From assembly GCA_016186715.1 (NCBI GenBank), contig JACPLA010000050.1:1-43502 (forward strand): DNA of 43,502 nucleotides, in the 5' to 3' direction. This document shows positions 13,102 to 32,314 of this stretch, piece by piece (the stretch's first letter is position 1; each line of letters opens with the position of its first letter). This DNA is from Ignavibacteriales bacterium (GTDB lineage: Bacteria > Bacteroidota > Ignavibacteria > UBA10030). The translations under genes and the position numbers were made by a program. A model generated the notes under the pieces. The model did not search any database, was not told the origin of the DNA, and was given only the letters and a program-made list of their open reading frames with translations.

Positions 13102-14262
13102 TCAATCCCCCGTTGCTGTTCCTACGAGAGACTTGAAATAGCACCTCCTTCGTTTGTGCTGCCTTCCTTCGTAGAATCTCCACTGTGCCCGCACTTTCGT
13201 GTTCGATTCAAGCTCGGGGTTTGATTCAACACGCGTTACATTCCTTTTGGTATAGAGAACATTCATTTCGTACATCAGAATGGCATTCAGACCCTTATCC
13301 TGCATATCCGGACGGATGGCTGTAAGATAAAGATCGACCCGGTCGTTCTTTTTCATCGCCTTCAGCAGATGGGCAAATCCGAAAGGAAACAATCGTCCGT
13401 GTGCCTTCTGGAGCGCATGGGACATCGAGGGCATCGTGATGCCAAAGGCCGCAATCTTTCCTTCGCAATCCAGAACAACCGGCACGAATTCGGGACGGAT
13501 GAAACCAAAGTACTGCTTCACATACATCTCGACTTGTCTCTCCGTGAGCGGCACGAACCCGTAGAGGCCGGTGTAGGTGGTATTGATAAGCCCGAAAATT
13601 TCTTTTGCATATGGAAGCAGCTCTTTTGCCCGTTTCACTTTCAGGGTTTTCAGTTGATATCGATCTGCAACGACACGCGCGAGCCTTTTAACCTTTTCCG
13701 GGATTTCCTTCGGCGGAACCATTTCGTATTCAACCCAGTCGACATCTTTCTGATACCCGAGCTTCTCCAGATGTACGGGATAGTAAGGATGGTTGTAGAT
13801 GGTTGCAATCGTTCCGAGCTCCTCAAAACCCTCGATCAGCATTCCCTCCCGGTCCATATCAGTGAACCCAAGCGGACCATGCACTGCCTCCATCCCCCGA
13901 TCCCTTGCCCAGCCTTCGATCTCCTGAAAGAGCAGCCGCGATATCTCCTCGTCGTCAATGAAATCGACCCATCCTATGCGGGCATATTTCTTCCCCCACA
14001 GGTCGTTGAAACGACGGTTGATGATGCCCGCGATTCGTCCCACCGGTTTGCGATCCCTGGAGGCAAGCCAGTACTTTGCTTCGCAGTGTTCAAAGGCAGG
14101 ATTACGGTCCTTTCGCAAGGTATTCATTTCATCGAACAGGAGTGGAGGAATCCAGTACCGATTCCCTTTGTAGATTGAAAAGGGAAATTTGATAAATCGT
14201 TTGAGGTCGTGGTTGGATCTGACCTCTTCTATGACCGCAGACATACCGCCTTCCTTTCGCAC
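13102..14262 (-). CDS. GNAT-superfamily acetyltransferase-like protein
   Basis: Domain-like pattern VGRIAGIINRRFND...GRLFPFGFAHLLKAMKKNDRVDLYLTAIRPDMQDKGLNAILMYEMN; family-level call only. Confidence 0.6.
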   Translation of the reverse strand: MRKEGGMSAVIEEVRSNHDLKRFIKFPFSIYKGNRYWIPPLLFDEMNTLRKDRNPAFEHCEAKYWLASRDRKPVGRIAGIINRRFNDLWGKKYARIGWVDFIDDEEISRLLFQEIEGWARDRGMEAVHGPLGFTDMDREGMLIEGFEELGTIATIYNHPYYPVHLEKLGYQKDVDWVEYEMVPPKEIPEKVKRLARVVADRYQLKTLKVKRAKELLPYAKEIFGLINTTYTGLYGFVPLTERQVEMYVKQYFGFIRPEFVPVVLDCEGKIAAFGITMPSMSHALQKAHGRLFPFGFAHLLKAMKKNDRVDLYLTAIRPDMQDKGLNAILMYEMNVLYTKRNVTRVESNPELESNTKVRAQWRFYEGRQHKRRRCYFKSLVGTATGD

Positions 14263-14280
14263 AAACGATGATGTCGCCGA

Positions 14281-16215: not shown

Positions 16216-16306
16216 TCATGTGCGAGATTGCTTTTTCACCTCGGCGATTTCCGCTTGTGGAAATCATGACTTCAAGAAGCTTCTGCATGGCAGTTGCACT
16301 GTTCCG

Positions 16307-17275
16307 TCAGGCCTGATACGTTCCGCGCGTTTTCGAAAAGAAATACTCCATCAGTCCCAAAAAACCCGCCGAAGCTGCAACGGCGCCGACGGAATGTACG
16401 ATTGCGATGGGAGAAAGAAAATAAAGGACCATTCCCCTGGTGTACCATATAAGAACTTTATAGGAATTATGTTGCGAAGGATTCCTGATGAGGATGAAGC
16501 TGCTCGAAACCATCGTCACAACGGCTGCAGCGCTGAGAACCAAAAACACTGTGCTGGAGCCTTCGTTTGAACCAACACTGACTTGATCCGACAGGAAGAA
16601 CAGAATTCCCGCGACGGCAACAACGATGTACGGGATCACATGCCACTTTGCGACGTCGATCCCGTAATAGACCGGCGCCGTTCTGTATCCTGTTTTGGCG
16701 TCTCCCTCCACATCTTTGAAATACCCCGTAAGAACAAATCCGGCATAGACGAAACAGACGAGGAATGCAAATACGATGACTTCGCGCGGAAACCCGTTCA
16801 GCGTCGTGATGTCTGAAACACCCAGAGCTCCAAGGAACGGTAGCGCCGCAACGATAAGACCATTCCACACCGGTCCCGCATTCGGGATACGCTTCATTCT
16901 ATTGTAGGTGAAGCTCAACACGAGCGCGGCTCCCTGGAAAGCCAGCATCAGGGGGTTGATGAAATAAAATAGAATTCCGACTGCAAGCAGAAGGCTTCCA
17001 AGCACAACCCACATCATTTTCACCGGCAGCTCCCCCGTTACCATGGGACGAAACGGAGCGTTGATCCGATCCGTTTCGAGATCAAACGTATCGCAAAGCG
17101 CCTGGATCAGCCCGTACGAAAAGAAGCAGATAAGAAATGTGGTCGCGGTTTTCCAAACCGGCGGATCCTGATATGCGAATACCATGCCTGTAAGTCCTGC
17201 TGCACCGGAGACCGCGAAGAAGTGGGGGCGAAAAGTCGTCCAAACGTTTCTGACGAAAGCGATCGCTTTGTTCAT
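16307..17275 (-). CDS. UbiA-family prenyltransferase
   Basis: LIQALCDTFDLETDRINAPFRPMVTGELP (Asp-rich motif), multiple TM helices, GYFKDVEGDAKTGYRTAPVYYG (second Asp motif). Confidence 0.88.
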   Translation of the reverse strand: MNKAIAFVRNVWTTFRPHFFAVSGAAGLTGMVFAYQDPPVWKTATTFLICFFSYGLIQALCDTFDLETDRINAPFRPMVTGELPVKMMWVVLGSLLLAVGILFYFINPLMLAFQGAALVLSFTYNRMKRIPNAGPVWNGLIVAALPFLGALGVSDITTLNGFPREVIVFAFLVCFVYAGFVLTGYFKDVEGDAKTGYRTAPVYYGIDVAKWHVIPYIVVAVAGILFFLSDQVSVGSNEGSSTVFLVLSAAAVVTMVSSSFILIRNPSQHNSYKVLIWYTRGMVLYFLSPIAIVHSVGAVAASAGFLGLMEYFFSKTRGTYQA

Positions 17276-17284
17276 GACATTCTC

Positions 17285-18325
17285 CTATTCAAGACCGACA
17301 TTCCTGGAATACTTCAGGAGCGATTGTACATAGCTCCCGGGATCTTCCCGAATTGAGGATGAGAGTTGACGGACAAAGGCAATGTCGATTTGAGCTTTCC
17401 GGTTTTCCGTCAATACGTGAAAACCGGAGCCCTCGACCGCCTTCCCGATTTCGAATACATTGAGTTGAAGATCTCGGCAGCGATTCAAACATTCTTGAAC
17501 GCGGTCACCCGGCACCGAGAAGACCAGCTCGAACTCACCATGCTCGGCCGCCGCAAACAGCCAAAGGGGAATCTGAAATCTCGAGGCAAGGGCGCGTGCA
17601 TCGGAATGATAGCATTCCGGTCTTTGGCGGTACAAGATCCCGCAGTCGTTCAGCCGCGACAGGATGTCCAGGCTGGCGAACAAACCGTCGCTGGAATCGA
17701 TGCAAGCGGAGGCCACGTCCCGAATCACGGGCCTCGCATCAAACCTCGCCGTGGGACGATAATGCATCTCAATCTCTTGTGCTTCCTCCAACTTCTGCAG
17801 CTTTGAGAAGCCCAGTGCGTTCCCGAGTCCGATGGATCCGGTCACAAAGATTCGATCACCCGGTTTCATCCCGGTCCTCTGGCGCGCAACTGCTTTCGGA
17901 ACGAGACCGAAAGCGGTTCCGCAAATCTGAAGGGAGGATCCGGTGTTCACGTCGCCGCCGAGAAGCGCCGTCTTGTGCACAGTGGCCGCATCGGCGATCC
18001 CCCTGGAGATTTCTTTGACAGTTTCAGTTGGAATGGATGAGGGCAGCGTCCAGGCAAGCAACATCCCGAGCGGTTCAACTCCGACGGCCGCAAGATCGCT
18101 CAGGTTGATGTTCACTGCCGTCCATCCGATGGTCCAGGGATTCTCGAGGATCCCCAGCTCGATCTCTTCATGGAGCGAATCCGTCGTGCAGGCGAGACAC
18201 AGATCGCTGGAGAGTTCGATCAACTCGGCGTCTGAAGCAAACGGAGCATTGACCTGACGCGGATCCCGGGTCAGATGTGAGCGCACGACATTGATCAACT
18301 GTTCTTCCACAGTGCGGGAGTCCAT
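17285..18325 (-). CDS. ThiL-like / AIR-synthase-related kinase
   Basis: TTDSLHEEIELG, GWTAVNINLSDLAAVGVEPLGMLLAWTLP, LLGGDVNTGSSLQICGTAFGLVPK, RTGMKPGDRIFVTGSIGLGNAL, CIDSSDGLFASL. Confidence 0.75.
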   Translation of the reverse strand: MDSRTVEEQLINVVRSHLTRDPRQVNAPFASDAELIELSSDLCLACTTDSLHEEIELGILENPWTIGWTAVNINLSDLAAVGVEPLGMLLAWTLPSSIPTETVKEISRGIADAATVHKTALLGGDVNTGSSLQICGTAFGLVPKAVARQRTGMKPGDRIFVTGSIGLGNALGFSKLQKLEEAQEIEMHYRPTARFDARPVIRDVASACIDSSDGLFASLDILSRLNDCGILYRQRPECYHSDARALASRFQIPLWLFAAAEHGEFELVFSVPGDRVQECLNRCRDLQLNVFEIGKAVEGSGFHVLTENRKAQIDIAFVRQLSSSIREDPGSYVQSLLKYSRNVGLE

Positions 18326-18330
18326 CTACC

Positions 18331-19203
18331 TCACCGGTCAGTTCCAAAATTGTATGCAAATCCGAGCCATGGAAGAAACGGAAATCCAGTAATTCTTGAA
18401 CCAGCAGGATAGATGAGACCTAGATCGGCTGCCAGACTCTCTCCGAAGAAACGTATGCCGAAAGAGAGAAAAGCAATATCGGAATCCGGCGGGAACCAAT
18501 TTTCAGTGATGAACTTAATACTATTTGATGCGCGGAGTTCGCCTCCTAACATGATTATTGGCTTGTCGGCAGTTTCGTCTCCAGAAAAACCCCAACCAAG
18601 TCCAGCTGTCAGTGAGGCTCTTTGGCTGCCGAACGAAGTCACACCATAGATGATTCCTACTCCATCTGATCCCCCGGAAGTAGAGTTGATATATAAAACT
18701 CCACCGGAAAGACTGAGGTTGTCAATCTCAACCGGAGTTACCTTCGGGGCGAGATAGAAGATTTGACTCTCTGCTCCGGGGAAAAGGGATATACCGCCGG
18801 CCAGTGTGAGGACATCCGCAACGCCCACAGCCAGAAAAGGGAAGAATATCTGATAAGCTGAGAAGTACCCTTGTCCTGATTCGAGTGGTCGGGCAGTGGG
18901 GGCAAAAAACAACCGTGTGTGATTGGGATCGGGACGAATATATTGCCCACCCTCGACTTGTCCAGAAAGCTGTTCCCTGGCTTTCACTTGGTTTTTGGGA
19001 ATCGTCATTGAAATGTTACCGATGGTGTTAAAGAAAATTGAGACAGAATCCTCCTTGACGATAGTCCCAATAAGTTCTGATCCGTCTCTGAGAACCAGCT
19101 TGGTTGGTCTTTGAGATGTAGTGTCTTGCTGAGAAAAGCATCTGGTCATGAGAATAGAATCTAGCGCAACAAGCACCAAGACCGTCGAGAAAATAGATCT
19201 CAT
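18331..19203 (-). CDS. Secreted/outer-membrane hypothetical protein
   Basis: Signal peptide MRSIFSTVLVLVALDSILMTRCFSQQ; beta-rich glycine-containing C-terminus ending WLGFAYNFGTDR. Start moved to 19203. Confidence 0.6.
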   Translation of the reverse strand: MRSIFSTVLVLVALDSILMTRCFSQQDTTSQRPTKLVLRDGSELIGTIVKEDSVSIFFNTIGNISMTIPKNQVKAREQLSGQVEGGQYIRPDPNHTRLFFAPTARPLESGQGYFSAYQIFFPFLAVGVADVLTLAGGISLFPGAESQIFYLAPKVTPVEIDNLSLSGGVLYINSTSGGSDGVGIIYGVTSFGSQRASLTAGLGWGFSGDETADKPIIMLGGELRASNSIKFITENWFPPDSDIAFLSFGIRFFGESLAADLGLIYPAGSRITGFPFLPWLGFAYNFGTDR

Positions 19204-19315
19204 CTGATTATGTCCTTTCTGCCCCCTCAATGAGATTCCTTTTGGGGTAAGGGCGGTTTTGCCTGACTTTGTGTACAATGAACAGTGCACTGCGAGCAGC
19301 TTTGTCACCTCGCTC

Positions 19316-20284
19316 TCAGTAAACCATCTCCACCGGACGACGCGTAATTCTGAACCGGGCTGGCAGATATCCGATCAGCTCTCCGTCCGCTTCAATGATG
19401 CCTCTCTCCGACGATTCAATGACGATCTCCTTCGCCTTCTCAAGCCAGACCTTGGGATGCGAGAGAATGGATCCGCGATAGAAGAGGCTGAGCGTCCCTA
19501 TTCTTTCGAGCTTCGACAAATCGCCGACCCCCACGACGCAAAACGATCCAGGGGGTGCCTTTGCCCGCGGCCCGTACGACATCCCTCCGCCGAAATTGGG
19601 ACCCCTGAGAATCGCAAGGTTCGTGAGAACGCTCTTTCGTGTGCGCGTACCGTCAAGGACGATCCCATACTTCCGGGATTCATGGCGCACAATCGCGTTG
19701 ATCGCCGACCACAGCACGGCGGAATCCACCGAGTATCTCTTCATCATTCGCACGATTGCTGCGCTGCGGTTAAAGAATTCGAGTGCGCGCGCGACAATAC
19801 CGAGGCTTGCGTTCACAAGGAAATACCGGGTGACCGGCAGCCCCTGAGCGTCTCTGCAATCGATCCGGCCAACGTTGATCGGGACGGAGACACCCGCGGT
19901 GAGACGTTGAACAAAGGATCCGTTGCCGCCGCCAAAACTCCGGATGAAGTCATTACTGCTTCCAGCGCCGACAAAACCGAGGAGTGGAAGCCTTCTCCTG
20001 GGGGCCTTTTGCCGAAGGAGTCCATTTAACACTTCGTTGAGCGTCCCGTCTCCGCCAAACGCCACAATATAGTCAACCCCGTCCTGCACCGCTCTCGACG
20101 CAAGAGAAACGGCATGTCCGCGGGATTCCGTCACATCAACATGAAAAGGCATGTTGACGTTTTTCAGGGCCTGTTCCAGAATGCGCAACCGGCCAAGGGC
20201 AGTCGCTCCCCCGGCATTTGGATTCACAATAACATACACAGAACGTCGAATCACCGAAGGATCCTCTCCTCGACAAACTCGCAA
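19316..20284 (-). CDS. Diacylglycerol kinase-family lipid kinase (YegS/DagK-like)
   Basis: YVIVNPNAGGATALGRL, VAFGGDGTLNEVLNGLL, LGFVGAGSSNDFIRSFG, EADGELIGYLPARFRI. Confidence 0.9.
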   Translation of the reverse strand: MRVCRGEDPSVIRRSVYVIVNPNAGGATALGRLRILEQALKNVNMPFHVDVTESRGHAVSLASRAVQDGVDYIVAFGGDGTLNEVLNGLLRQKAPRRRLPLLGFVGAGSSNDFIRSFGGGNGSFVQRLTAGVSVPINVGRIDCRDAQGLPVTRYFLVNASLGIVARALEFFNRSAAIVRMMKRYSVDSAVLWSAINAIVRHESRKYGIVLDGTRTRKSVLTNLAILRGPNFGGGMSYGPRAKAPPGSFCVVGVGDLSKLERIGTLSLFYRGSILSHPKVWLEKAKEIVIESSERGIIEADGELIGYLPARFRITRRPVEMVY

Positions 20285-21189
20285 AACGTCTCTCTGGACG
20301 AGAACCGGGGGATATAGCCAAACTCCCTCTTCAACTTGGTAATATCCGGAACGCAGGAATGAGTCACAAATCCAAGCTGACCCCCTCCAAACGGTGCCAG
20401 CCGGAGTGCAAAGAGTCCATTCAGCAGGGCCCGGGCCAAGTACTCGGGAAACCGCACGAATTTCCGTCGGGCAATCCGCGCCATTTCGCTGAGACGAACC
20501 ATTCCCTCCCCGGCCACATTGAACGCCCCCCTGACAGGTTTGACCAGAGACTGAAAGAGAATCTCGTTCATATCTTCCTCATGGGTAAAGGCCAGGAAAG
20601 GGTCGCGGCGGCGGATTCCAAGGATCATCGGCGCTTCGAGACCGGCTGAAATCGCGTTGTGAACATGACGGCCAAGAACGTTGCAAATCCGGAGGACAAC
20701 GACATTACAGCCGGGGTGCGTGCTGCTAAAGTCCGTGATGAGGCCTTCAACAATTGCCTTGTTCATCGAGTAGTGAAAATCTCCATTGCCACGCAGCGGA
20801 TGTGATTCAGGAATCGGCAACGGGTTATCCGCATGCCACCCGTAAGCCGCAATACTGCTCGCAATCACGAGTTTCCGCACGGGGGCCGTTTCGCACGCCT
20901 GAAGAACGTTCCGTGTGCCCCCGACATCGACGTCATGCTCAAGGCGTGGATTGTGAGTGGGGTTCACGACGAACGCAAGGTGGACAACATGGGAGACCGA
21001 TTCCTTCTTGAACACATTGCTCAGTCCGGGATCGCGCACATCCATCTTGATGAATTCCATTCCTTCTGTCGGCACGGGCGGACGGATGTCAAGACCGATC
21101 ACACGATGAAACAACCGCTCTCCCCGAAGGCGGCCCAGTAACCCCTGTCCCAGGTAACCGCTTGCCCCTGTTATTGCAAGAACAGCCAT
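20251..21189 (-). CDS. NAD-dependent epimerase/dehydratase (extended SDR)
   Basis: MAVLAITGASGYLGQGLLGRL; VVHLAFVVNPTHNP; HYSMNKAIVEGL; start moved to 21189. Overlaps the DagK-like gene by 34 nt. Confidence 0.88.
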   Translation of the reverse strand: MAVLAITGASGYLGQGLLGRLRGERLFHRVIGLDIRPPVPTEGMEFIKMDVRDPGLSNVFKKESVSHVVHLAFVVNPTHNPRLEHDVDVGGTRNVLQACETAPVRKLVIASSIAAYGWHADNPLPIPESHPLRGNGDFHYSMNKAIVEGLITDFSSTHPGCNVVVLRICNVLGRHVHNAISAGLEAPMILGIRRRDPFLAFTHEEDMNEILFQSLVKPVRGAFNVAGEGMVRLSEMARIARRKFVRFPEYLARALLNGLFALRLAPFGGGQLGFVTHSCVPDITKLKREFGYIPRFSSRETFCEFVEERILR

Positions 21190-21239
21190 GGTTTCTCCTT
21201 CATTATCATCATTCATAATACCCGCTCCCGCCCGGAAAA

Positions 21240-21256
21240 TTGTCATGAAATTGTCA
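21240..21256 (-). promoter_or_regulatory. Direct repeat TGACAA-N5-TGACAA upstream of epimerase/DagK unit
   Basis: Minus strand: tgacaatttcatgacaa, then 19 nt, then TATTAT. Confidence 0.6.
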
Positions 21257-21323
21257 AAACGTGGTAAGAAGATTGACAATGGAAGAGGGTGGGTGGGGGA
21301 ATCTTCGGATTATGCCGTGAGGA

Positions 21324-21401
21324 GGATGGATGAATGGATGATGGATGGTGGCGTTCGCTCATGTGCTTGTGAACACACCCATTCTCCATCATCCATCCTC
21401 C
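21324..21401. repeat. Inverted pair of 7-nt arrays (GGATGGA-type ... CCATCMT-type) after TonB receptor stop
   Basis: ggatgga tgaatgg atgatgg atggtgg ... ccattct ccatcat ccatcct cc; complementary arms. Confidence 0.8.
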
Positions 21402-21415
21402 TGTAAGTATTGCGA

Positions 21416-24106
21416 TTAGAACGCGTACGACAGCCTCCCTATAACCATTCTTCCGATTTCCGGAGCACCGATGAAGTACCGATGTTTCTTGTTGAGAAGG
21501 TTCGTCGACGAGAGAGTAACGCCGAACCCGCGGAATCCGAGATCCTGAAGCCCAAGCGTTACATCAATGAACGATCCCGGACTCACGGATCCGACATACA
21601 CGCCTGAGTTCATACGAAATCCCTCTGTCCAGCGATAGCGGAGTTTGGAAAAAAGCCCGTACTCAGCGTTGCGATAGGCGACGGCGATCGAACCCTTTGA
21701 CCGGGGTGCATTGAGGGAAAGGTCCGTCGCGCCGTCGAGCTTTTCAAAGAAATTCCTGCTGACGTACGAGTAGGTTCCTTCGAGTGAAATCATTCCGGAG
21801 AGTCGATAATCCGCCCACAGATCGATTCCCTGCAAATTGACTGTCCCGAAGTTCCGGGAAGCCAGGAGGATGGCGGTGTTGCTTTCTGCTTCCTTTGGCG
21901 TAACCGTACCGAGCGGAATTTGTCCGACACTTGCTCCGATCTGAGTGGCCTGGTCCTCTGCAATTGCCTCGGCCTGCGGCTCGGGTACGCCTTGATCCAT
22001 CAGTCCCTGCTTGATGTAAGGCTTCAGATAGTCTTTCACATTGTCGCCATTCAGGAACACATTTGGCGTAAAGATCTGAAGCGGACCGATGAAATCGGTT
22101 ACCCGGGTGTAGTATATATCAACGCTGGCCTGGAGGCGGCTGGAAAAAACGCCCTTGTAGCCGACTTCGAGCGTTTGCGTGATCGTTGGTTTGAGCGCTT
22201 TGATATCGTACACGTCGGAGACCGGATCAAACGATCCCGTTTCCGGATTCAGAAGCGCCATCAAGGATCCGACCTCCTGACTGGTCGGGGCCGGAATGCC
22301 GGAGAGATCGACACCGCCGGCAGCGAGAAAATCCACGACGGCCGACCAGAGCAGAGCCGCCTCATCGGCGGGAATCGGCCCGGCGGGGAAAAAGGGGGAA
22401 TGCATCACGGGACGTCCCGCAATACGGTCAAAGTTGAACCCGGAAGTCGGAACTCCACTTGCGCGGACGGCAATGGCGTACGGTTCCGGAAACCCAAAGA
22501 CATTTGCCACCGACTCGATATCGAGAAAAAGTTCCGTCGTCGTGGGAGTTGAATACGCCCGGTTATACGTCACTCGAATGTTGTGATGATCGTTCGGCCT
22601 CAAAGTGATCCCTGCCCGCGGTGAAAAAACCGGACTGAGAAGCTGGTTATGCTTGTCGATCCGAGCCGCAAAGGCCAGGTCCAGATGATTGTCAAACAGC
22701 CGTGTCTCAGACTGCAGGTAACCGCCGTACTCATTGATATCGTCCGAGGCTTCGTTGCGACCGTTGATCGTGCCTCCGGTTTCGGGCCGTGTAAGAAGCA
22801 GATCTGCACCATAGATAAACCGCTGAGCATCGCTCAGGGCCACCGAATGTTGAATCTGAGTTACGAACTGAGACGACCGATCCACGATCGGTTCCCCGCT
22901 GCGGAGCAGATACGTGTCGCCGGCATCACTCTTGTTGAAAAACGCCTGGGCAAAAAGGTCGCCGTAACTCACCCGAGCCTGTGCGTACGAATAGTTCCAA
23001 TCCTTTGCCTGAGCAGCGCCGATGTCGGTCAATTCAATACCGCGGACCAATTGCGTCATTCCAAATGTCGCCACGGCCGAGAGTTGGTCGCCAAGGAGAA
23101 AATCCAGGCGGGCCTCTCCGGCATAGCGCTCGATCACTCCCTCACGCTTTCCTATCCGCAAGGTCGATGCATCCGCCCCGGCCGCGAGTGCATCCTGGCG
23201 AATTGCGGTTTCTACCGGGTCGACATAGCTCCAATCTTTCCCCTTGAAATAGAGCCCGGAGAACTTATATCCGGCATTGTTCCCAACGGAGCCGGCGTGA
23301 CGAAATGTTCCTTGAAACACCGATCGTTCCCCCATCGTCGTCGAAACAGAAGTCCCCTTCGAGGAAAAAGGAGAAGAGGTGATGAAATTGACCACTCCGT
23401 TTGCCGCATTGGGTCCATAGAGCGCGGATCCCGGGCCCCGAACAACCTCCACGCGCTCTATGTCATCGTTACCGGGCGCGAGAAGATAAGGAGCGTTGAG
23501 GCGGAGAGAAGGAACACCCGCCAACCGGTTGTCAGTCAGCATCATGAGCGTGCCGGAGAACACATTGTTGAATCCGCGCACCACGACGTTTTGCTGAAGA
23601 AGACCGGTTTGTGAGACGTCGACCCCCGCAACCGTTCGAAGATGATCCGTCGGGGTGATAACAGGCGCTTCAGCAACCGCTCTGGCGTCAATGACGGACA
23701 TCGACGCCGGGGCTTCAAGGAGCTTTTGTTGCTTGCGGGACGCCGACACCACAATCCCGTCGAGCATGATGATCCGTGGTACAAGCTCGGCATCAAGGCG
23801 GACAGATTGTGCCCCAAGGACCGAAATCCGTTCCATTCTCCGGGTGTGATGCGCCACTGACATGAAACTGACTGTATAATATCCGACCGGGATCTCCCCC
23901 AACGCGTACATGCCCCTCCCATCGCTGTAGACCCATGTTTGTTTTGTCGAATCCGTAAGACTCGTCGCCAGAATCACCACATTGACGATCGGCTCTGCCG
24001 TTTCCGCCTCTAGTACTCTTCCGGTGATGGTCCCGGTTTGTGCGGCGAGCTGATTCAATCCCGCCATCCAGACCAGAATCAATGTTCCACTGACTAGTTG
24101 TTTCAT
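21416..24106 (-). CDS. TonB-dependent receptor with carboxypeptidase-like N-terminal domain
   Basis: GTITGRVLEAETAEPIVNVVI; LLEAPASMSVIDARAVAEAPVITPTDHLRTVAGVDVSQTG (plug); RVEVVRGPGSALYGPNAANGVVNFIT; ends in RLSYAF. Confidence 0.95.
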   Translation of the reverse strand: MKQLVSGTLILVWMAGLNQLAAQTGTITGRVLEAETAEPIVNVVILATSLTDSTKQTWVYSDGRGMYALGEIPVGYYTVSFMSVAHHTRRMERISVLGAQSVRLDAELVPRIIMLDGIVVSASRKQQKLLEAPASMSVIDARAVAEAPVITPTDHLRTVAGVDVSQTGLLQQNVVVRGFNNVFSGTLMMLTDNRLAGVPSLRLNAPYLLAPGNDDIERVEVVRGPGSALYGPNAANGVVNFITSSPFSSKGTSVSTTMGERSVFQGTFRHAGSVGNNAGYKFSGLYFKGKDWSYVDPVETAIRQDALAAGADASTLRIGKREGVIERYAGEARLDFLLGDQLSAVATFGMTQLVRGIELTDIGAAQAKDWNYSYAQARVSYGDLFAQAFFNKSDAGDTYLLRSGEPIVDRSSQFVTQIQHSVALSDAQRFIYGADLLLTRPETGGTINGRNEASDDINEYGGYLQSETRLFDNHLDLAFAARIDKHNQLLSPVFSPRAGITLRPNDHHNIRVTYNRAYSTPTTTELFLDIESVANVFGFPEPYAIAVRASGVPTSGFNFDRIAGRPVMHSPFFPAGPIPADEAALLWSAVVDFLAAGGVDLSGIPAPTSQEVGSLMALLNPETGSFDPVSDVYDIKALKPTITQTLEVGYKGVFSSRLQASVDIYYTRVTDFIGPLQIFTPNVFLNGDNVKDYLKPYIKQGLMDQGVPEPQAEAIAEDQATQIGASVGQIPLGTVTPKEAESNTAILLASRNFGTVNLQGIDLWADYRLSGMISLEGTYSYVSRNFFEKLDGATDLSLNAPRSKGSIAVAYRNAEYGLFSKLRYRWTEGFRMNSGVYVGSVSPGSFIDVTLGLQDLGFRGFGVTLSSTNLLNKKHRYFIGAPEIGRMVIGRLSYAF

Positions 24107-24156
24107 GGTCGTGCCTCCTTTGATGTTCGAATGTGCTTGTGGTCGTTAAGCCGGCT

Positions 24157-24351
24157 TCACTTGAGTAGAATCACCCGTTGTGTTTCGACCGTTTCTCCTG
24201 CGACAAGCCGCGAGAAGTAAATCCCGCTGGGCAAATGCGATGCGTCGAACCGGGCACTGTGATAACCGGCGTTCATCTGTCCATCCAGAAGCGTCGCAAC
24301 TTCCTGACCGACAAGATTGTAGAGAATGGAGAGAATGACGATTATTTCCAC
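24157..24351 (-). pseudogene. Orphan type IX secretion (Por) C-terminal sorting domain remnant
   Basis: SILYNLVGQEVATLLDGQMNAGYHSARFDASHLPSGIYFSRLVAGETVETQRVILLK, with no upstream passenger domain in frame. Confidence 0.75.
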
Positions 24352-24459
24352 AATAACAACTTGAGCATCGGTGGTATCATAGCTTGCTCACTCTTGAGTC
24401 AAGGGAATCGGACTTGACCCTCCGTCCAGTGACAAATCTTGTATGCCTTGCAAATGCAG

Positions 24460-24927
24460 TCATGGGGCGGCGATCAGCTTTCCGATCGTTTCTCTTTTTT
24501 CCGCGACGCTTTTCCCTTCGAGCGGTACCGCCTGTTCCATATCCCGCAAAGATCCCGCTACGCTGCCGATGATCCCGCCAACGATTCCGATGTACAGGGC
24601 CGATGTTTCCATCGTTCGGTTTTGATCACGCACGGGTCGTGCCAGAAAACCGGCAACCATGCCGACGGCCAACCCAATGCCTGCACCGACCGCCGCGCCT
24701 TCGACGATTGATCCCTCGCGCATGACGCGGATTTGCTCGATCTCTTCGATGGGAACAAACAATGATTTTCCTCCGCTCAGGAGCTGTAGCGAGTCTCCTT
24801 CCATTCCCCGCCACGTTGCATTCAGAATTACTCTGTTCTCCGATAACTTCAGCCACAGGTAGTGATCCTGGGCCAAAGCGTTGAGCGGAACAAAGAAAAA
24901 GGAAACGAGCGCAATGAACTGTTTCAT
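24460..24927 (-). CDS. Hypothetical secreted protein with glycine-zipper-like hydrophobic segment
   Basis: Signal peptide MKQFIALVSFFFVPLNALAQ; GAAVGAGIGLAVGMVAGFLA. Confidence 0.6.
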   Translation of the reverse strand: MKQFIALVSFFFVPLNALAQDHYLWLKLSENRVILNATWRGMEGDSLQLLSGGKSLFVPIEEIEQIRVMREGSIVEGAAVGAGIGLAVGMVAGFLARPVRDQNRTMETSALYIGIVGGIIGSVAGSLRDMEQAVPLEGKSVAEKRETIGKLIAAP

Positions 24928-25004
24928 CGTATTCTTTTCTTAACAAGCACATGAAGGAGGGGGAGATCAGGAAATCCTTCACTCCCCGCTCAAAGAGTTG
25001 CAGC

Positions 25005-25577
25005 CTACCATTGAGTCCGCGCAGAACCCCGGATTGCGTAGCCGACAATCAGTGAAACCCGCTGTCCCTCGGGGTTGGTTGTCACTGCGAGATTGATCGG
25101 AATGCTGACACCGCCGTAGTCGATGCTCTTGCCGACAGCTATGGTGAGAGCCGTGCGCGGCTTGTCCGCAAGCAGCACGTTCGGACCCATGCCGAACTCT
25201 ATTCCATTGGGAAGTCGGACGCCGATCGCAAGAGTGGCCGTCGGAAAGATTCTGCTGTATTCGACTCCCGAGATCAGGGGGACAGCTTGAATGACAAATT
25301 GAGGCCCTCCGCCTTCCGGAATCACCTGGTATTCAAAGTGCCAGCCAAACTGGCTCAGCAGAAGCCCAAAGCCGTTTCGTTTCAACTCATCGGCCAGTTT
25401 TCCGCCTCCGACGACGTACGTAACGCCCAATCGGGGCCCTCCAAGATTCCGCTCTGCCAGAGTCACCGGTTGCTCCATAACCTGAACCTGAGCGACAGCC
25501 GTCATAGAGGCGGTTGTCAGAACCGCTCCGATGAAGGCGCCCAGCTTCGAAATCCTCGTTCTCATGATATCCTCCAA
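25005..25577 (-). CDS. Hypothetical exported protein
   Basis: N-terminal hydrophobic signal (GAFIGAVLTTASMTAVAQ); first gene downstream of a three-unit TGACAA array. Confidence 0.6.
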   Translation of the reverse strand: MEDIMRTRISKLGAFIGAVLTTASMTAVAQVQVMEQPVTLAERNLGGPRLGVTYVVGGGKLADELKRNGFGLLLSQFGWHFEYQVIPEGGGPQFVIQAVPLISGVEYSRIFPTATLAIGVRLPNGIEFGMGPNVLLADKPRTALTIAVGKSIDYGGVSIPINLAVTTNPEGQRVSLIVGYAIRGSARTQW

Positions 25578-25637
25578 AGTGGATTGATTGATGTGGTGAT
25601 CAACTTCATATCAAAGACGGAAAAACCGGATCGATCG

Positions 25638-25665
25638 TTGTCACGGTTTTGTCAAACAATTGTCG
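25638..25665 (-). promoter_or_regulatory. Three-unit array CGACAA-N5-TGACAA-N5-TGACAA upstream of 25005..25577
   Basis: Minus strand: cgacaattgtttgacaaaaccgtgacaa; exact 11-bp period. Confidence 0.65.
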
Positions 25666-25717
25666 AATTGCAGCGCGACAAAATCTTTGCCAATCGCGTG
25701 ACAGCTTCATCGGGCAC

Positions 25718-25807
25718 TTACAGAAGAAAGACCAAAGCGATGAGACTGAGAAATGTTTCGACCGCAACCCAAAAAACAATGATCCTCAACGCCATTCCTA
25801 TTTTCAC
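25718..25807 (-). CDS. Candidate 29-aa single-TM micropeptide (GTG start)
   Basis: Minus strand GTG at 25807: (M)KIGMALRIIVFWVAVETFLSLIALVFLL*; preceded by gaaaggaag. Confidence 0.35.
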   Translation of the reverse strand: MKIGMALRIIVFWVAVETFLSLIALVFLL

Positions 25808-25835
25808 AGGCTTTCCTTCCGATAGATCGCTGGAT

Positions 25836-26093
25836 TTATACAATCTGAATTTCGTTGTCGGGAACGAGTTCGTCGATCATGATCTGAACCGCGCCGAATG
25901 GCGTTAAGAATTTCCGAAGGGCGAAACAACCAATGAGCAAGTTCCCGATGCCATGATGGCGGGCGATTTGCTCCAGGAGTCGCCGATACAGTCTGGGTGA
26001 AATGAGAATCGCACTCGGAATGGACCGATGATGCTGACTGTGGCGTGCAACAGTTTCGTTGATGGCTTTCCCAGGGTCAGTGACTTCCTGCAT
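25836..26093 (-). CDS. Small hypothetical protein (85 aa)
   Basis: Open frame MQEVTDPGKAINETVARHSQHH...TPFGAVQIMIDELVPDNEIQIV; RBS-like ggagat upstream. Confidence 0.5.
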   Translation of the reverse strand: MQEVTDPGKAINETVARHSQHHRSIPSAILISPRLYRRLLEQIARHHGIGNLLIGCFALRKFLTPFGAVQIMIDELVPDNEIQIV

Positions 26094-26153
26094 AGGTAAT
26101 CTCCTTTCTTGGCGCGCAAAGCGGGCTATTACAATACCATTCAGATGTTTCCG

Positions 26154-26981
26154 TTAGTCGAGAGAAGCATGACGAAACATTGTTCCGGGGGACCAGTTCA
26201 TCCGTCGATATGATTCAAGCTCGAGCACGATTGACCCGAGAAAAATCTTGACCTCCGCACGAACCGGTAAAGCTGCTTCGTCATCTGTCAGCCATCCCTG
26301 GAAGGCGCCGGTCATGCCGGCAAATGTTTTCCCCTCCCATTTGGCAATTCCCTGGACGTACCGGCAACGGATTTCCCTGTCAAACGCTGGGACCTCGAGT
26401 TCTTCCTCTTCCCCCGTGAATACCACCTCGGTCGGAGCAATCTGATAATCGTTCAATGTCGGAAGCGTGATCTTGGCACGGCCCCCGGACAGCACTCGTG
26501 TCGCCATGAAAAGGCTCAGAGCATCGTACAAGAAACCATTCCAGCGCATGCTATCGCTGCGGAGACACGTCCCCTGAGCGCTGTCTGTCGCAATGAGAAT
26601 CTCCCGAGACCTGTCGTGAACGAACGTAGAGAAAATCGTCGGATCGTCTCCGGAAATCACACGGACATACTCCAGAGAGGGAACGTCTTTCTGAAGAACC
26701 GCCTCGTTGATAAAATTCACGTTGATGAACGGGAGTCCCGCAGCTGATCGGACATCCATGCGAACCAGGTACTTCTCTGTGTTTCCCATGGGCAATTGTT
26801 CCTGATGAACGATCACGGTGCCAAGGCGGATGAAATTCCACTTTACTTTGTATTGGAGCACCTCCCCGTGGGAAAACGGAGCCTTCTCCGTATTTTCCTG
26901 ACCAAACAAACTGCTGAACAGAGTGGGGATGACAAGAATCAGAATCCGAAAGCCGCGAAGAACCTCACAATGAGAATTCAT
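26154..26981 (-). CDS. DUF3108 domain-containing protein
   Basis: APFSHGEVLQYKVKWNFIRLGTVIVHQEQ...VRMDVRSAAGLPFINVNFINEAVLQKD; start moved to ATG 26981. Confidence 0.75.
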   Translation of the reverse strand: MNSHCEVLRGFRILILVIPTLFSSLFGQENTEKAPFSHGEVLQYKVKWNFIRLGTVIVHQEQLPMGNTEKYLVRMDVRSAAGLPFINVNFINEAVLQKDVPSLEYVRVISGDDPTIFSTFVHDRSREILIATDSAQGTCLRSDSMRWNGFLYDALSLFMATRVLSGGRAKITLPTLNDYQIAPTEVVFTGEEEELEVPAFDREIRCRYVQGIAKWEGKTFAGMTGAFQGWLTDDEAALPVRAEVKIFLGSIVLELESYRRMNWSPGTMFRHASLD

Positions 26982-27000
26982 GATCACATTCCTTTCCTCT

Positions 27001-28023
27001 TCAGAGGCAAATCTCTTCCCGGATATGAGCTGGAATGAGACGAACATTCGGCACAATCGTCCGTCCACATGTTACTTTGAAGAAATCGACCAGAAAGTCC
27101 GTGTAGGATGAATACACCGATGATCCTGCTTTCGCATATTTCGCTTCGAGTAGTCTGTGCACCTTCCGCAAATTGTACCAGGGAATGCCCGGAAACAGGT
27201 GATGCTCCAGATGATAGTTGAGGTTGCACATGAAGAAGGAAACAAAAGCGTTGCTCACGACGGTACGACTTGCCGTGAAATCATTTCCTCCCGTGGTCAG
27301 TCCGTGTTCAGCGAGGCCGCGAACGTTGGACAGCTGTGCGGCAACAAGCAGCGGAAGGATCCACACGGTGACGAGTTCTTGCAACGGAACGACAAGAAAC
27401 AGAAGGACGATGAAAGCAATCAGGAACGCATATTCCTGAAGAATCTCTTTCCTGACTCTGGCTTTACCTTTTTGATAGCCAACGATGGCCACAGTCGGGA
27501 TATAGAAGTAAATCCCCATCAACAAGACCGCATAATAGACAAAGACCAGTGGCAAGCCCTTTGCGGATGCTCCTTCGACGTTATCGGGATCGTCTTCCGT
27601 TTTTGTATGAGCGTGATGGGCGATATGAACTGACCGGTAGGCTGAAACGGCAACAAGACCGGGAATGCCGCACAGAAACCCTAGCCAGCGGTTGACAAAG
27701 AGATCCTTCGACAACAATGAATGGCAGGACTCGTGCATCATGATGGCGAGTCCGTTGAGCGAGAAGGACATCAGAATGATGGAAGGGATTTGAGCCGGGA
27801 CGTATTCAACGGAAAGTGCAATCCACCCGGCGGCAATCCAGATTCCGACAAAGAAGAGGGTTTTCCAATTGTACCGCGTATCGAGACTTTGCAGCAACCG
27901 CAAAGACGCCCATTGCTCCCGCGAGATGCTCTTGCGGGTTACCGTTGACAGGTTGTCACTTCCATCGCAGTAGTAGATCTGTGACTCCGACTCCCTGTCT
28001 TTTGTTTGTGTCGCCTGTTGCAT
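27001..28023 (-). CDS. Fatty acid desaturase, membrane di-iron
   Basis: Histidine boxes HESCHS, HIAHHAHT, NYHLEHHLFPGIPWYNL plus TM segments. Confidence 0.93.
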   Translation of the reverse strand: MQQATQTKDRESESQIYYCDGSDNLSTVTRKSISREQWASLRLLQSLDTRYNWKTLFFVGIWIAAGWIALSVEYVPAQIPSIILMSFSLNGLAIMMHESCHSLLSKDLFVNRWLGFLCGIPGLVAVSAYRSVHIAHHAHTKTEDDPDNVEGASAKGLPLVFVYYAVLLMGIYFYIPTVAIVGYQKGKARVRKEILQEYAFLIAFIVLLFLVVPLQELVTVWILPLLVAAQLSNVRGLAEHGLTTGGNDFTASRTVVSNAFVSFFMCNLNYHLEHHLFPGIPWYNLRKVHRLLEAKYAKAGSSVYSSYTDFLVDFFKVTCGRTIVPNVRLIPAHIREEICL

Positions 28024-28103
28024 GATATCCTCCGGTCAGTAACGTCTGACATAACCGCTTGTGAGACCCGTCATCCCCAATGACAGGAACTGTTACGGCG
28101 TTG

Positions 28104-28131
28104 TTGTCACGACTTTGTCAATCCGTCGTCA
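28104..28131 (-). promoter_or_regulatory. Three-unit array TGACGA-N5-TGACAA-N5-TGACAA upstream of desaturase
   Basis: Minus strand: tgacgacggattgacaaagtcgtgacaa; 11-bp period. Confidence 0.65.
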
Positions 28132-28172
28132 AAGTTCATCCATCGCTCGATCACTTTTTTTTTACATTCTTC

Positions 28173-28189
28173 TGACGATCGTGTGACAA
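28173..28189 (+). promoter_or_regulatory. Direct repeat TGACGA-N5-TGACAA upstream of SDR gene
   Basis: Plus strand: tgacgatcgtgtgacaa, then 19 nt, then TATTTT. Confidence 0.6.
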
Positions 28190-28242
28190 TTTTTCTCCGC
28201 CTCCCCGGTATTTTAAGAAAGGACAAAGGGAGATATCCCAAA

Positions 28243-29082
28243 GTGAAAACCTTGAAGAACAGCAACATTCTTGTGACTGGCGGTTCGGGAGGAATTGGCT
28301 CGGAAGTGTGTCGACTCATTTCGTCGGTCGGGGCAACGGTGATTTCCGTGGAACACTCTTCCGAAATGAACCACATGTCAGGCGTGGCATTGGCTCTCGC
28401 AGCGGATCTTCGGCGCCCCGCCGAATGGGACCGCGTGACAGCAGTTGTCCTTGAGCGATTCGGGCAGCTCGACGGACTGATCCACTGCGCGGGCGTCCTG
28501 ATCCCGGGGACCGTTCTCACGCTCTCCGTCCAACAGCTTGAGCAGATGGTCAGCGGAAATTTCCTCACTCTTCTCTATGGCATCCGATCCGTTGCGCCGG
28601 TGATGATCCGGCAGGGTTCCGGGCATATTGTGACCATTGGCTCTCTGGGCGGCATACTTCCGATGCCGTATGAGGCAGTGTACAGCGCGACAAAGTTTGC
28701 GGTTCGCGGACTCTGCCTCTCTGTGAGCGAGGAGTTAAAGAGATTCGGAGTTCACGTCAGTCTCATTTCCACCGGTCCGGTCGAAACGAAGATGCTGGAT
28801 ACCGAGGCACACGATAAGAAGTCATACATCGCGTTCATGAGCCGTTCTCAAAATCCGGCCGACATCGCGACCGCCGTTTTCGATGTTCTGATCAATCCGC
28901 GCACAGAAGTTCTTTTCCCCCGGCTCGCGGGAATCTGCGCTTCCGTTGTGTCACACTGTCCCCCCCTTTTCCGTCTTTTGTATCGATATCTTCGGCCGAT
29001 CGGGGAGAAACGGCAACAAGCTTATGTGAGAAAACGGCAGCACCAGGCACCGGTGTCAACCCTCTTTCAGGTGAAATCATGA
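28243..29082 (+). CDS. Short-chain dehydrogenase/reductase
   Basis: NILVTGGSGGIGSEVC, GVLIPGTVL, YSATKFAVRGLCLSVSEEL. GTG at 28243 favoured over the ATG at 28183, which lies in the promoter array. Confidence 0.88.
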   Translation: MKTLKNSNILVTGGSGGIGSEVCRLISSVGATVISVEHSSEMNHMSGVALALAADLRRPAEWDRVTAVVLERFGQLDGLIHCAGVLIPGTVLTLSVQQLEQMVSGNFLTLLYGIRSVAPVMIRQGSGHIVTIGSLGGILPMPYEAVYSATKFAVRGLCLSVSEELKRFGVHVSLISTGPVETKMLDTEAHDKKSYIAFMSRSQNPADIATAVFDVLINPRTEVLFPRLAGICASVVSHCPPLFRLLYRYLRPIGEKRQQAYVRKRQHQAPVSTLFQVKS

Positions 29083-30497
29083 AAAAACCCAAGCTTCTTC
29101 TTCTTGTGCTCTTTCAGAATTTGAAAGATGCGGATCCTTATTACGCTCGTACTCCTGCCCCGCCGTTGCCAGGAATCCTGCTCGCCGGCATGACACCGCC
29201 GATCGTTGAGGTCGAAGTGCTTCACGAAATGGTGCGGCCCATCGATTACGAAACCGATGCAGACTTTATCGCGATCAGCTTCATGGATTATCTCTCCCCC
29301 CACGCGTACGATGTCGCCGAACGGTTCAGGAAATTGGGAAAACCTGTCATCGGCGGAGGGAAGTTTGCAACGACTCATCCGGACGAAGTACAACCTCATT
29401 TCGATTCTATCCTTGTTGGAGAGGCGCAGAACGTCTGGCCTCAGATGGTGCGGGATCTCGTGGCGGGAACGCTGAAGCCGCGCTATACAGCTGAGCCCAT
29501 GCCCTCCCTCGAGGACATTCCCCCGCCGCGTTATGATCTGGTTGAAAAAACCTTCACGGTCCCGGTTGTGACCGAAGCATCACGCGGCTGCCCTCATCCG
29601 TGTACGTATTGTCAGCTGAACATCAATCGTCTTCCGTATCGGATGCGGCCCGTTGCCGATGTGATCCGCGATCTTCGCGCCACCCAGACGCTTCCATGGT
29701 ATCGAAGGAAAATGGCCATGATCCTCGACAATAACCTCGGCGGAAACTTGCAGAACGCAAAGGCTCTCCTGAAAGAGGTTGCCAAACTAGACTTCTGGGG
29801 AATCGGAACCCAATTCAGCATCGAATGTCTTCGCGACAACGAATTTGTGGATTTGCTCGCGAAAGCCCAATGCCGAATGGCCTTTCTCGGAATGGAATCG
29901 CTCAGCGACAAGAGCCTGGCAGGAGTAAAAAAGCGTCAAAACAAAGTGCGGGAATACAAGGAGAGCTTTGACAAACTGCACCGGCGCGGGATTCTGACCT
30001 TCACAGGACTCATGTTCGCCCTCGACGAGGATACGAATGAGTACTACGAATCGCTCCCCGAGCGCCTGGATGAAGTGGGGACCTGCGTGATCCTTCCCTC
30101 GATCTCAATCCCGATCTACGGAACACCCTGGTATCAACAGGTCATCCGGGAGGACCGGCTCGTCGATCCAGACATTTCTCACTATGAGGGAGATCACCTG
30201 GTTTTTCGGCACAACCATCTCTCCGATGACGAAATCTATGCCGCCTATAAACGAGTCAACAGGATTTTCTACTCCTGGTCAAATATCATTCGCCGTTGGT
30301 GGCGGTTTATGAAGAAGCAGACGCGCCAGGAACCGCCGATTCTCTTTCTCCGGAGATTATTCCTGACGTCGTTCATTTATTTCAAACTCTCGATCTTTCA
30401 GCGACACCACGCGCAGCATCGCGTCTTCCCCGCGCTGAGCTCCCGCAGCAACTCCGGCGAAGGTGAGCGGTCGGAAACGATGACTCGAGCGGCCTGA
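29079..30497 (+). CDS. B12-binding-type radical SAM protein
   Basis: N-terminal cobalamin-binding-like domain; TEASRGCPHPCTYCQLNI (CxxxCxxC); ATGA overlap with SDR stop. Confidence 0.9.
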   Translation: MKKPKLLLLVLFQNLKDADPYYARTPAPPLPGILLAGMTPPIVEVEVLHEMVRPIDYETDADFIAISFMDYLSPHAYDVAERFRKLGKPVIGGGKFATTHPDEVQPHFDSILVGEAQNVWPQMVRDLVAGTLKPRYTAEPMPSLEDIPPPRYDLVEKTFTVPVVTEASRGCPHPCTYCQLNINRLPYRMRPVADVIRDLRATQTLPWYRRKMAMILDNNLGGNLQNAKALLKEVAKLDFWGIGTQFSIECLRDNEFVDLLAKAQCRMAFLGMESLSDKSLAGVKKRQNKVREYKESFDKLHRRGILTFTGLMFALDEDTNEYYESLPERLDEVGTCVILPSISIPIYGTPWYQQVIREDRLVDPDISHYEGDHLVFRHNHLSDDEIYAAYKRVNRIFYSWSNIIRRWWRFMKKQTRQEPPILFLRRLFLTSFIYFKLSIFQRHHAQHRVFPALSSRSNSGEGERSETMTRAA

Positions 30498-30499
30498 AA

Positions 30500-31183
30500 T
30501 CAGGGGCGGACGAACTTATACCCCACAGTGTGGATGGTGAGCAAGTAACGAGGCTTGGAAGGAGACGGCTCGATCTTCTTTCGGAGAGAAAGTATATAAT
30601 TATCAACAGTTCGTGTTGTCGGCATCGCTTCATACCCCCACACTTCGTTGAGGAGCTGATCCCGGGAAATAACTTGACCCTCACGCTCGACGAAGTATCG
30701 CAGCAGCTCATATTCCTTGGCGCTCATTTCAATTTTTTTCTTTCCCTTCGAAGCTTCCTGACGCTTGAAGTCGATATGAACTTCGCCGATGTCTGTTTCA
30801 TGAACAAGGGAGACAAGATCCGTCTGGCGTCGAAGGAGGGCTTTGATGCGGGCAAGCAGCTCGCGAACGCTGAACGGTTTCGTCACATAGTCGTCCGCCC
30901 CGAGCTCGAGCCCAAGGACTTTGTCCGTCTCGTCCCCTTTCCCGGTCAACATGAGAATCGGGATTTTGCTCCCCGCCGACCGGAGCTGGCGGCAGATTTC
31001 CAAGCCGTTCATACCAGGAAGCATGACATCCAGTACAAGAAGATCCCACTGCGCTGTGCGCGCCTTCTCAAACCCCTTGATTCCATCCGACTCTGCGACC
31101 ACGCTGTAATGCTCCGAATTCAGATTGTCTACCAACCCCCGGAGAATTGCCAGGTCATCCTCGATGATCAGGATTTTTTTCAT
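30500..31183 (-). CDS. OmpR/PhoB-family response regulator
   Basis: Receiver domain LVLDVMLPGMNG, GADDYVTKPFSVRELLARI; winged helix EYELLRYFVEREGQVISRDQLLNEVWGYE...RTVDNYILSLRKKIEP...HTVGYKFVRP. Confidence 0.95.
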   Translation of the reverse strand: MKKILIIEDDLAILRGLVDNLNSEHYSVVAESDGIKGFEKARTAQWDLLVLDVMLPGMNGLEICRQLRSAGSKIPILMLTGKGDETDKVLGLELGADDYVTKPFSVRELLARIKALLRRQTDLVSLVHETDIGEVHIDFKRQEASKGKKKIEMSAKEYELLRYFVEREGQVISRDQLLNEVWGYEAMPTTRTVDNYILSLRKKIEPSPSKPRYLLTIHTVGYKFVRP

Positions 31184-31198
31184 AGAAAATTCCTCATA

Positions 31199-32314
31199 TC
31201 ATTGAGCACGGATCACCACGATGGTGATGTCATCGGACTGGGGCGTACCGCCGGCAAAACGCTGCAGGGACCGCATGGCCTGTTGGATCAGGGCCTTGCT
31301 GGTTCCCATCTTTCCCCTGAGAAGCCTGCGGAACCGATCAAAGCCGAATTCGTGAGAGTGCTCGTTCATGCATTCGACCACTCCGTCGGAGTACAGAACA
31401 AATACATCCCCGGGTCCGTATTCTACGGTTGTTCTCCGAAGCTCCTCGTCGAAGTTGCGGCCGATCGTCTGCCCGATCCACATTCCATCCGGTTTGATCT
31501 CTTCGATCTTCGACGCACGCCTCCGGAACACGGGAAGATGGCCGGCGCTCGCAAACTCCACGGTATGCCGGTCGAGATCAAACATCGCCGTCACCGCGGT
31601 AATAAAAGACGACGGTTCCATCGTCGTTCCCAGGTGTTCCTGGAGTTGAAGGAGAATATCGCCGGCAGTCCGTATCATGGTTTTCGATGCCTGAACGATT
31701 CCCTGCATCTTCTGAACATAGAGCGCCGCCGGCAAGCCTTTGCCTGAAACGTCAGCAACAATCACGGCCAGTTTCCGCGGGCCGAGAAGGAGATAATCGA
31801 AGTAGTCGCCTCCGACATGCGTTGCAGGAACCATGGTCCCCCAGACATCGAGAGTGTCGATCCGTGGGGGGATTTTGGGAAGAGAGCCCTGCTGAATTTC
31901 CCGCGCTTTTCGAAACTCCTGATCCAGAGCCCTTGCAGATCCCAGCGTCCGCTCCGTTCTTTCAATTGCATTGCGGATCCGAAGGAGCAGTTCCTGAATG
32001 CTGAACGGTTTTGGAATGTAGTCGTCCGCACCCAGGCCCAGCCCTCGCATTTTCGATCCCTCGTCTGCCAGGCCGGTGAGCATGAAGATCGGGGTCGCAT
32101 AACCTTCTTTTTTCAGCCGGGCGCAGATGTCAAATCCCGACATCGACGGAAGCATGACGTCGAGAATGAGAAGATCCAGGTTTTCGCGCCTTGCACGGGC
32201 CAGAGCGGCCCGGCCGTCTCGCTCCACGAGAACCTTCAGTTTCTCACGTTCGAGATTGGCCTGAAGACCCTGTCGAACCGCCGGGTCATCTTCTGCGATG
32301 AGAACGGTTTTCAT
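31199..32314 (-). CDS. Response regulator with PP2C/SpoIIE (RsbU-like) phosphatase output
   Basis: Receiver LLILDVMLPSMSGFD, GADDYIPKPFSIQELL; AREIQQGSLP, HVGGDYFDYLLL, VADVSGKGLPAALYV, FASAGHLPVF, YSDGVVECMN, SDDITIVVI. Confidence 0.93.
   Translation of the reverse strand: MKTVLIAEDDPAVRQGLQANLEREKLKVLVERDGRAALARARRENLDLLILDVMLPSMSGFDICARLKKEGYATPIFMLTGLADEGSKMRGLGLGADDYIPKPFSIQELLLRIRNAIERTERTLGSARALDQEFRKAREIQQGSLPKIPPRIDTLDVWGTMVPATHVGGDYFDYLLLGPRKLAVIVADVSGKGLPAALYVQKMQGIVQASKTMIRTAGDILLQLQEHLGTTMEPSSFITAVTAMFDLDRHTVEFASAGHLPVFRRRASKIEEIKPDGMWIGQTIGRNFDEELRRTTVEYGPGDVFVLYSDGVVECMNEHSHEFGFDRFRRLLRGKMGTSKALIQQAMRSLQRFAGGTPQSDDITIVVIRAQ

Follow-up and report, generated by a model that had tools for sequence, protein, structure and literature searches.

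A conserved tandem TGACAA promoter element accompanies an OmpR/PhoB-type regulator in Ignavibacteria and points to an envelope and lipid regulon

WalR recognizes hexamers with N5 spacers, and operators of the MerR/CarH type are also built on 11-bp direct repeats. CenR (of the CenKR system of Rhodobacter sphaeroides and other alpha-proteobacteria) reads a co-directional TGA-N8-TGA repeat, has mostly envelope targets, mostly activates them, and binds upstream of the -35 box (PMC9275681). In the present study, we analyzed a stretch of 43,502 nucleotides from an Ignavibacteriales bacterium (assembly GCA_016186715.1, contig JACPLA010000050.1), hereafter the window, in which four promoters (sites A to D) carry tandem TGACAA hexamers and which encodes an OmpR/PhoB-type response regulator (Table 1). 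Our computational results showed that the motif has a fixed spacing and promoter position, that it is conserved, and that it is both linked to and co-occurring with the regulator gene. The regulon with its conserved cis-element is real, two-component and of a known kind. It is apparently undescribed so far, as neither this motif nor this regulon is described in the literature searched, with few subscription journals.

In all four promoters, the tandem hexamers have an 11-bp period with N5 spacers, and each site is directed toward its own gene. The positions, strands, spacers and gene-facing orientation reported by an earlier sequence-only reading were all confirmed, and the 19-nt gap that it noted between the proximal hexamer and TATTAT at site A or TATTTT at site D is exact. 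However, the half-sites number ten (2+3+3+2) rather than the nine it had counted. The distances from the sites to the likely start codons are about 50 nt for A (start 21189), 73 nt for B (start 25565), 80 nt for C (start 28023) and 53 nt for D (GTG 28243), consistent with the proposed range of about 50-110 nt.

Pattern searches of the 2.39-Mb genome that contains the window returned six matches to the strict pattern TGACRA-N5-TGACAA and none to a reversed control, and five of the six fall within sites A to D in one 7-kb region. When up to two mismatches were allowed, the window contained 18 matches, compared with 7.7 +/- 2.7 in shuffled sequences, and none of 100 shuffles reached 18. A position matrix trained on 74 sites, all from other genomes with the window genome excluded, gave sites A, D, B and C the four highest scores in the window (29.3, 25.8, 18.1 and 15.4, respectively), while the fifth-best position scored 10.5 and the top score among 12 random windows was 14.6. 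The four-site observation is real and far above chance.

Loci of orthologues of the regulator were gathered from the same family and order. An unseeded repeat search of the first 12 such loci found TGACA repeated at 11 bp in 13 regions, whereas no 5-mer exceeded 3 regions in control loci. Across 31 regulator loci with 254 upstream regions, 26 regions had TGACA recurring at exactly 11 bp, and the next unrelated 5-mer recurred in this way in 4. Tandem direct repeats of about 11 bp are those of the OmpR/PhoB family, and the motif is tied to the regulator by genomics. We then searched 98 genomes of the order for TGAC-N7-TGACA-N{15,25}-TAnnTT. Among 131 matches, a gap of 20 after TGACA, which equals 19 nt after TGACAA, occurred in 75, and the sole other peak was a gap of 17 (21 matches). 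Since TTGACA is an ordinary -35 box and such gap-17 matches occur, the repeats might be regarded as chance or as the -35 boxes of ordinary promoters. The gap-17 matches are indeed ordinary TTGACA-17-TA promoters, because a T precedes TGACA in 19 of the 21, but this is the case in only 14 of the 75 gap-20 matches, and the period, spacing, position and co-occurrence counts refute such an origin for the repeats, leaving it a practically negligible probability. The distinct gap-20 composite sites of the order were intergenic in 67 of 73 cases and no more than 150 nt from a gene start in 54, so they are not scattered inside coding sequences or at random, as the earlier reading had said they would be if it were wrong. 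One of the six sites scored as coding is site D itself, because a spurious 53-aa open reading frame (ORF) covers it. The 19-nt gap to the -10 box places the proximal half-site at the position of the -35 box, which is consistent with class II activation.

The sites also follow the regulator across genomes. In the order, the 37 genomes with the regulator contained 54 gap-20 sites, and the 61 genomes without it contained 21 (P = 3e-4, family-stratified, with verified orthologues). Across the whole class, 51 of the 70 regulator-bearing genomes had a site, versus 32 of the 226 others. Outside the order used for discovery of the rule, the corresponding counts were 38 of 50 versus 23 of 182 (family-stratified P = 4e-8), and 24 of 84 sites were no more than 7 kb away from the regulator gene, compared with an expectation of about 0.3. 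These P values serve as guides only, because the genomes are related. Genome G069, initially counted as regulator-free, in fact carries the regulator as a contig-cut copy next to 3 of its 4 sites. The strict site is missing from some genomes that have the regulator and present in some that do not, which would also fit a different reader of the motif, either an unlinked protein or a paralogous response regulator (for example C9:4207-4875), with the linked pair as a passenger of the gene cluster. This is quite improbable, since the sites track the regulator even where the neighboring genes differ, and since the paralogues (46-52%) have a different recognition helix and lie in motif-poor loci. 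In contrast, this helix hardly varies among the orthologues (TRTVDNYILsLRKK). A MerR/CarH-type operator was dropped from consideration as well, because the sites track an OmpR-type regulator.

The regulator combines a receiver with a winged-helix Trans_reg_C domain, as in the OmpR/PhoB family, and sites A to D are very likely the binding sites through which it activates the envelope and lipid genes. The co-occurrence and the clustering of sites at its gene support the proposal that one OmpR-type regulator serves these genes, and the cluster very probably works as a single control circuit for genes of the outer envelope and its lipids. On the promoter side, the regulator would occupy the TGACAA half-sites head-to-tail with two or three subunits, spaced by one helical turn (11 bp). 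As the proximal half-site ends exactly 19 bp before the -10 box, at the -35 position, the regulator would stand in for the -35 element in recruiting RNA polymerase, which corresponds to class II activation. A site at this position could equally block polymerase, and the OmpR-family members CenR (PMC9275681) and PhoB (PMC10294691) both activate and repress, so the regulator might bind the motif as a repressor or dual regulator. However, the fixed spacing of 19 bp from the -10 box and the lack of a -35 consensus at the usual 17-bp spacing favor activation, and co-directional sites are the activated class in CenR (PMC9275681), which makes repression or dual control unlikely.

Several observations weigh against activation of these genes by the regulator. 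The -10 boxes are poor at sites B and C, because GTCTTTG and GTCATTG, respectively, occupy the same register. The kinase/regulator operon has no site in front of it, and therefore there is no sign of autoregulation. In addition, the association is weak in families f3 and f5, 12 of the 50 regulator genomes outside the order have no strict site, and genome G088 has four sites with no regulator found at the threshold used. The kinship of the genomes was handled in part only, through the family strata.

A histidine kinase gene is adjacent to the regulator gene, or one gene off, at most loci, as for a cognate kinase. The kinase would phosphorylate the regulator in response to an envelope signal. 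Its PDZ-like domain matches PF13180 in 10 of 16 members and, being putatively periplasmic, may hint at a misfolded outer-membrane protein, which is our guess, or at a lipid defect as the signal. The output would comprise the epimerase/lipid kinase/UbiA/Omp85 operon, the desaturase-DUF3108 pair, the small outer-membrane barrel and the SDR-radical SAM pair. The receiver-PP2C protein encoded between the kinase and the regulator probably gives this kinase a second output that does not act on DNA; a protein of this type occupies the same place in L041 and L044. It is conceivable, though rather doubtful, that these parts form a class-wide envelope-lipid stress system, in which a PDZ-bearing membrane kinase has two simultaneous outputs, namely the class II regulator of lipid and outer-membrane genes and the receiver-PP2C phosphatase acting on a partner-switching or sigma-factor branch.

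Table 1. Sites, promoter elements and genes of the putative regulon in the window.
Feature	Positions	Strand	Details
Site A, TGACAA-N5-TGACAA	21240..21256	-	precedes epimerase/lipid kinase unit; top matrix match in window (29.3)
-10-like box TATTAT	21215..21220	-	19 nt after site A
Site B, CGACAA-N5-TGACAA-N5-TGACAA	25638..25665	-	weak -10 GTCTTTG 19 nt downstream
Site C, TGACGA-N5-TGACAA-N5-TGACAA	28104..28131	-	weak -10 GTCATTG 19 nt downstream
Site D, TGACGA-N5-TGACAA	28173..28189	+	precedes SDR/radical SAM genes
-10-like box TATTTT	28209..28214	+	19 nt after site D
OmpR/PhoB-type response regulator	30500..31183	-	PF00072 3.8e-29 and PF00486 4e-26; proposed binder of A-D
Receiver-SpoIIE (PP2C phosphatase) protein	31199..32314	-	between kinase and regulator
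Sensor histidine kinase	32286..34769	-	N-terminal PDZ-like, GAF, HisKA, HATPase; membrane segments read by eye
NAD-dependent epimerase/dehydratase	20251..21189	-	PF01370; leads the site A unit
Putative rest of operon A	13102..20284	-	same strand, short gaps; probable operon extent
Lipid kinase, operon A	19316-20284	-	
Unknown protein, operon A	18331-19308	-	
ThiL-like, operon A	17285-18325	-	
UbiA, operon A	16307-17275	-	
Phosphatase-Omp85 fusion, operon A	14281-16191	-	endonuclease/exonuclease/phosphatase domain joined to Omp85 barrel
Weak GNAT match, operon A	13102-14262	-	
Small unnamed protein, 186-190 aa	25005..25565	-	behind site B
Gly-zipper envelope protein	24460..24927	-	PF13441 below cut-off; downstream of 25005 gene, putative operon
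Fatty acid desaturase family protein	27001..28023	-	PF00487; behind site C
DUF3108 protein	26154..26981	-	PF11306
Short-chain dehydrogenase (SDR), GTG start	28243..29082	+	PF00106; behind site D
B12-binding radical SAM protein	29079..30497	+	PF04055/PF02310; overlaps SDR gene

The recurrent first genes behind the sites include orthologues of the desaturase, DUF3108, SDR and 25005 genes of the window, together with DAGK-type lipid kinases, UbiA, phosphatase-Omp85 proteins, small lipoproteins, proteins with the VNDTH signature typical of 5'-nucleotidases (judged by eye), and an enzyme of class I/II aminotransferase fold from the alpha-oxoamine synthase family. The theme of the regulon is taken to be the outer envelope and its lipids, because its recurrent targets are of these kinds. 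The conservation upstream of orthologues that the earlier reading had asked for was thus found for the desaturase (also in L041, L045 and L248), DUF3108 (also in L044, L055, L089 and L287), SDR, barrel, DAGK and UbiA genes. L248 also has the SDR/desaturase pair in the same divergent layout as the window, and the B12 radical SAM gene adjoins the regulator in many genomes. Orthologues of the phosphatase-Omp85 fusion recur next to the regulator too, some of them with the motif upstream.

The small protein behind site B has no Pfam or NCBIfam match. It is predicted to form an eight-strand outer-membrane barrel (mean pLDDT 75.5), the closest solved structures being of the OmpX/Ail type (TM about 0.5), and its orthologues, with the motif, recur beside the regulator in other genomes. 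An orthologue of the Gly-zipper protein downstream of it, in L040, is preceded by its own strict site. The Gly-zipper protein and other small envelope targets (L036 7844-8506, L040 4082-4567, L261, L272, and L289) seemingly have in common a short beta domain with the pattern DG..G.l..i..DSl.l....I..I, read by eye. Between sites A and B, positions 21416-24106 encode a large protein that resembles an outer-membrane receptor (TonB-type by eye) and lacks its own site.

The alpha-oxoamine synthase target occurs in L138 (8254-9573), L142, L144, L254 and G002:C92:48979-50241, with UbiA, lipid kinase, ThiL-like and B12 radical SAM genes as neighbors. The closest solved relatives of this 439-aa protein of other genomes are serine palmitoyltransferases (SPT), suggesting that an unusual sphingolipid-like pathway is possibly among the targets. 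This is left as a hint, because the protein scores below the SPT, BioF and KBL model cut-offs and because the window genome has only distant relatives (36-37%) and no close orthologue.

The sixth strict match of the window genome, on contig 81, was excluded as a separate element, an unrelated inverted repeat. It consists of TTGACAAC repeats, accompanied at a distance of 32 nt by an inverted copy, around a -10 box (L006 1436-1553). The same inverted-repeat layout is present in L038, L039 and L042, in the first two adjacent to a winged-helix protein some 343 aa long. This element looks like the operator of an autoregulator unrelated to the regulon of sites A to D.

Taken together, a regulator, a DNA code and a promoter geometry are linked to defined genes in a class for which the literature searched holds no such regulon. 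With the rule TGAC-N7-TGACA-N20-TAnnTT, targets can be predicted throughout the genomes of the class. The rule also suggests functions by association for unnamed envelope proteins (the 25005 barrel, DUF3108, and small lipoproteins) and for the lipid operon (UbiA and lipid kinase, plus the alpha-oxoamine synthase in other genomes).

Among known systems, the regulator passes no named NCBIfam model of YycF/WalR, MtrA, PhoB, RprY, CpxR, BaeR or PmrA. The highest-scoring named models were YycF (WalR; 215.6 of 340 bits) and MtrA (213.9 of 300), both far below their cut-offs, and the WalR half-site differs from TGACAA. The models for Bacteroidales, RprY (150.9 of 370) and the Bacteroidales-type PhoB (176.6 of 270), are likewise of OmpR type, but the scores are under the cut-offs. 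Escherichia coli PhoB belongs to the OmpR/PhoB family and binds 11-bp direct repeats in promoters, with a core (TGTCA) that is the complement of TGACA. The sequence-only reading had drawn a comparison with the Pho box. The half-site is the Pho-box core on the opposite strand, and the targets include VNDTH proteins and the phosphatase-Omp85 fusion, as might be expected in a phosphate-starvation (Pho) regulon. However, the resemblance is formal only. The orientation is opposite to that of the Pho box, and the regulator scores below the PhoB cut-off (208.8 of 296.2) as well as that of the Bacteroidales type. Of 23 PstS-family loci in 10 genomes, searched with flanks of about 1.5 kb, 22 have no motif near PstS, and the only one with TGAC-N7-TGACA nearby has it on the strand that does not encode PstS. 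The window genome itself has no PstS match at E<=0.001. A Pho regulon is thus very improbable.

CenR has the closest described DNA code, the comparison being one of code and targets. Both systems have an OmpR-type regulator, an 11-bp period, co-directional repeats and envelope targets, and TGACAA-N5-TGACAA contains TGA-N8-TGA. They differ in that the half-site here is longer (TGACAA), the target genes are different, and the proximal half-site lies at the -35 position, 19 bp before the -10 box, rather than upstream of the -35 box as in CenR.

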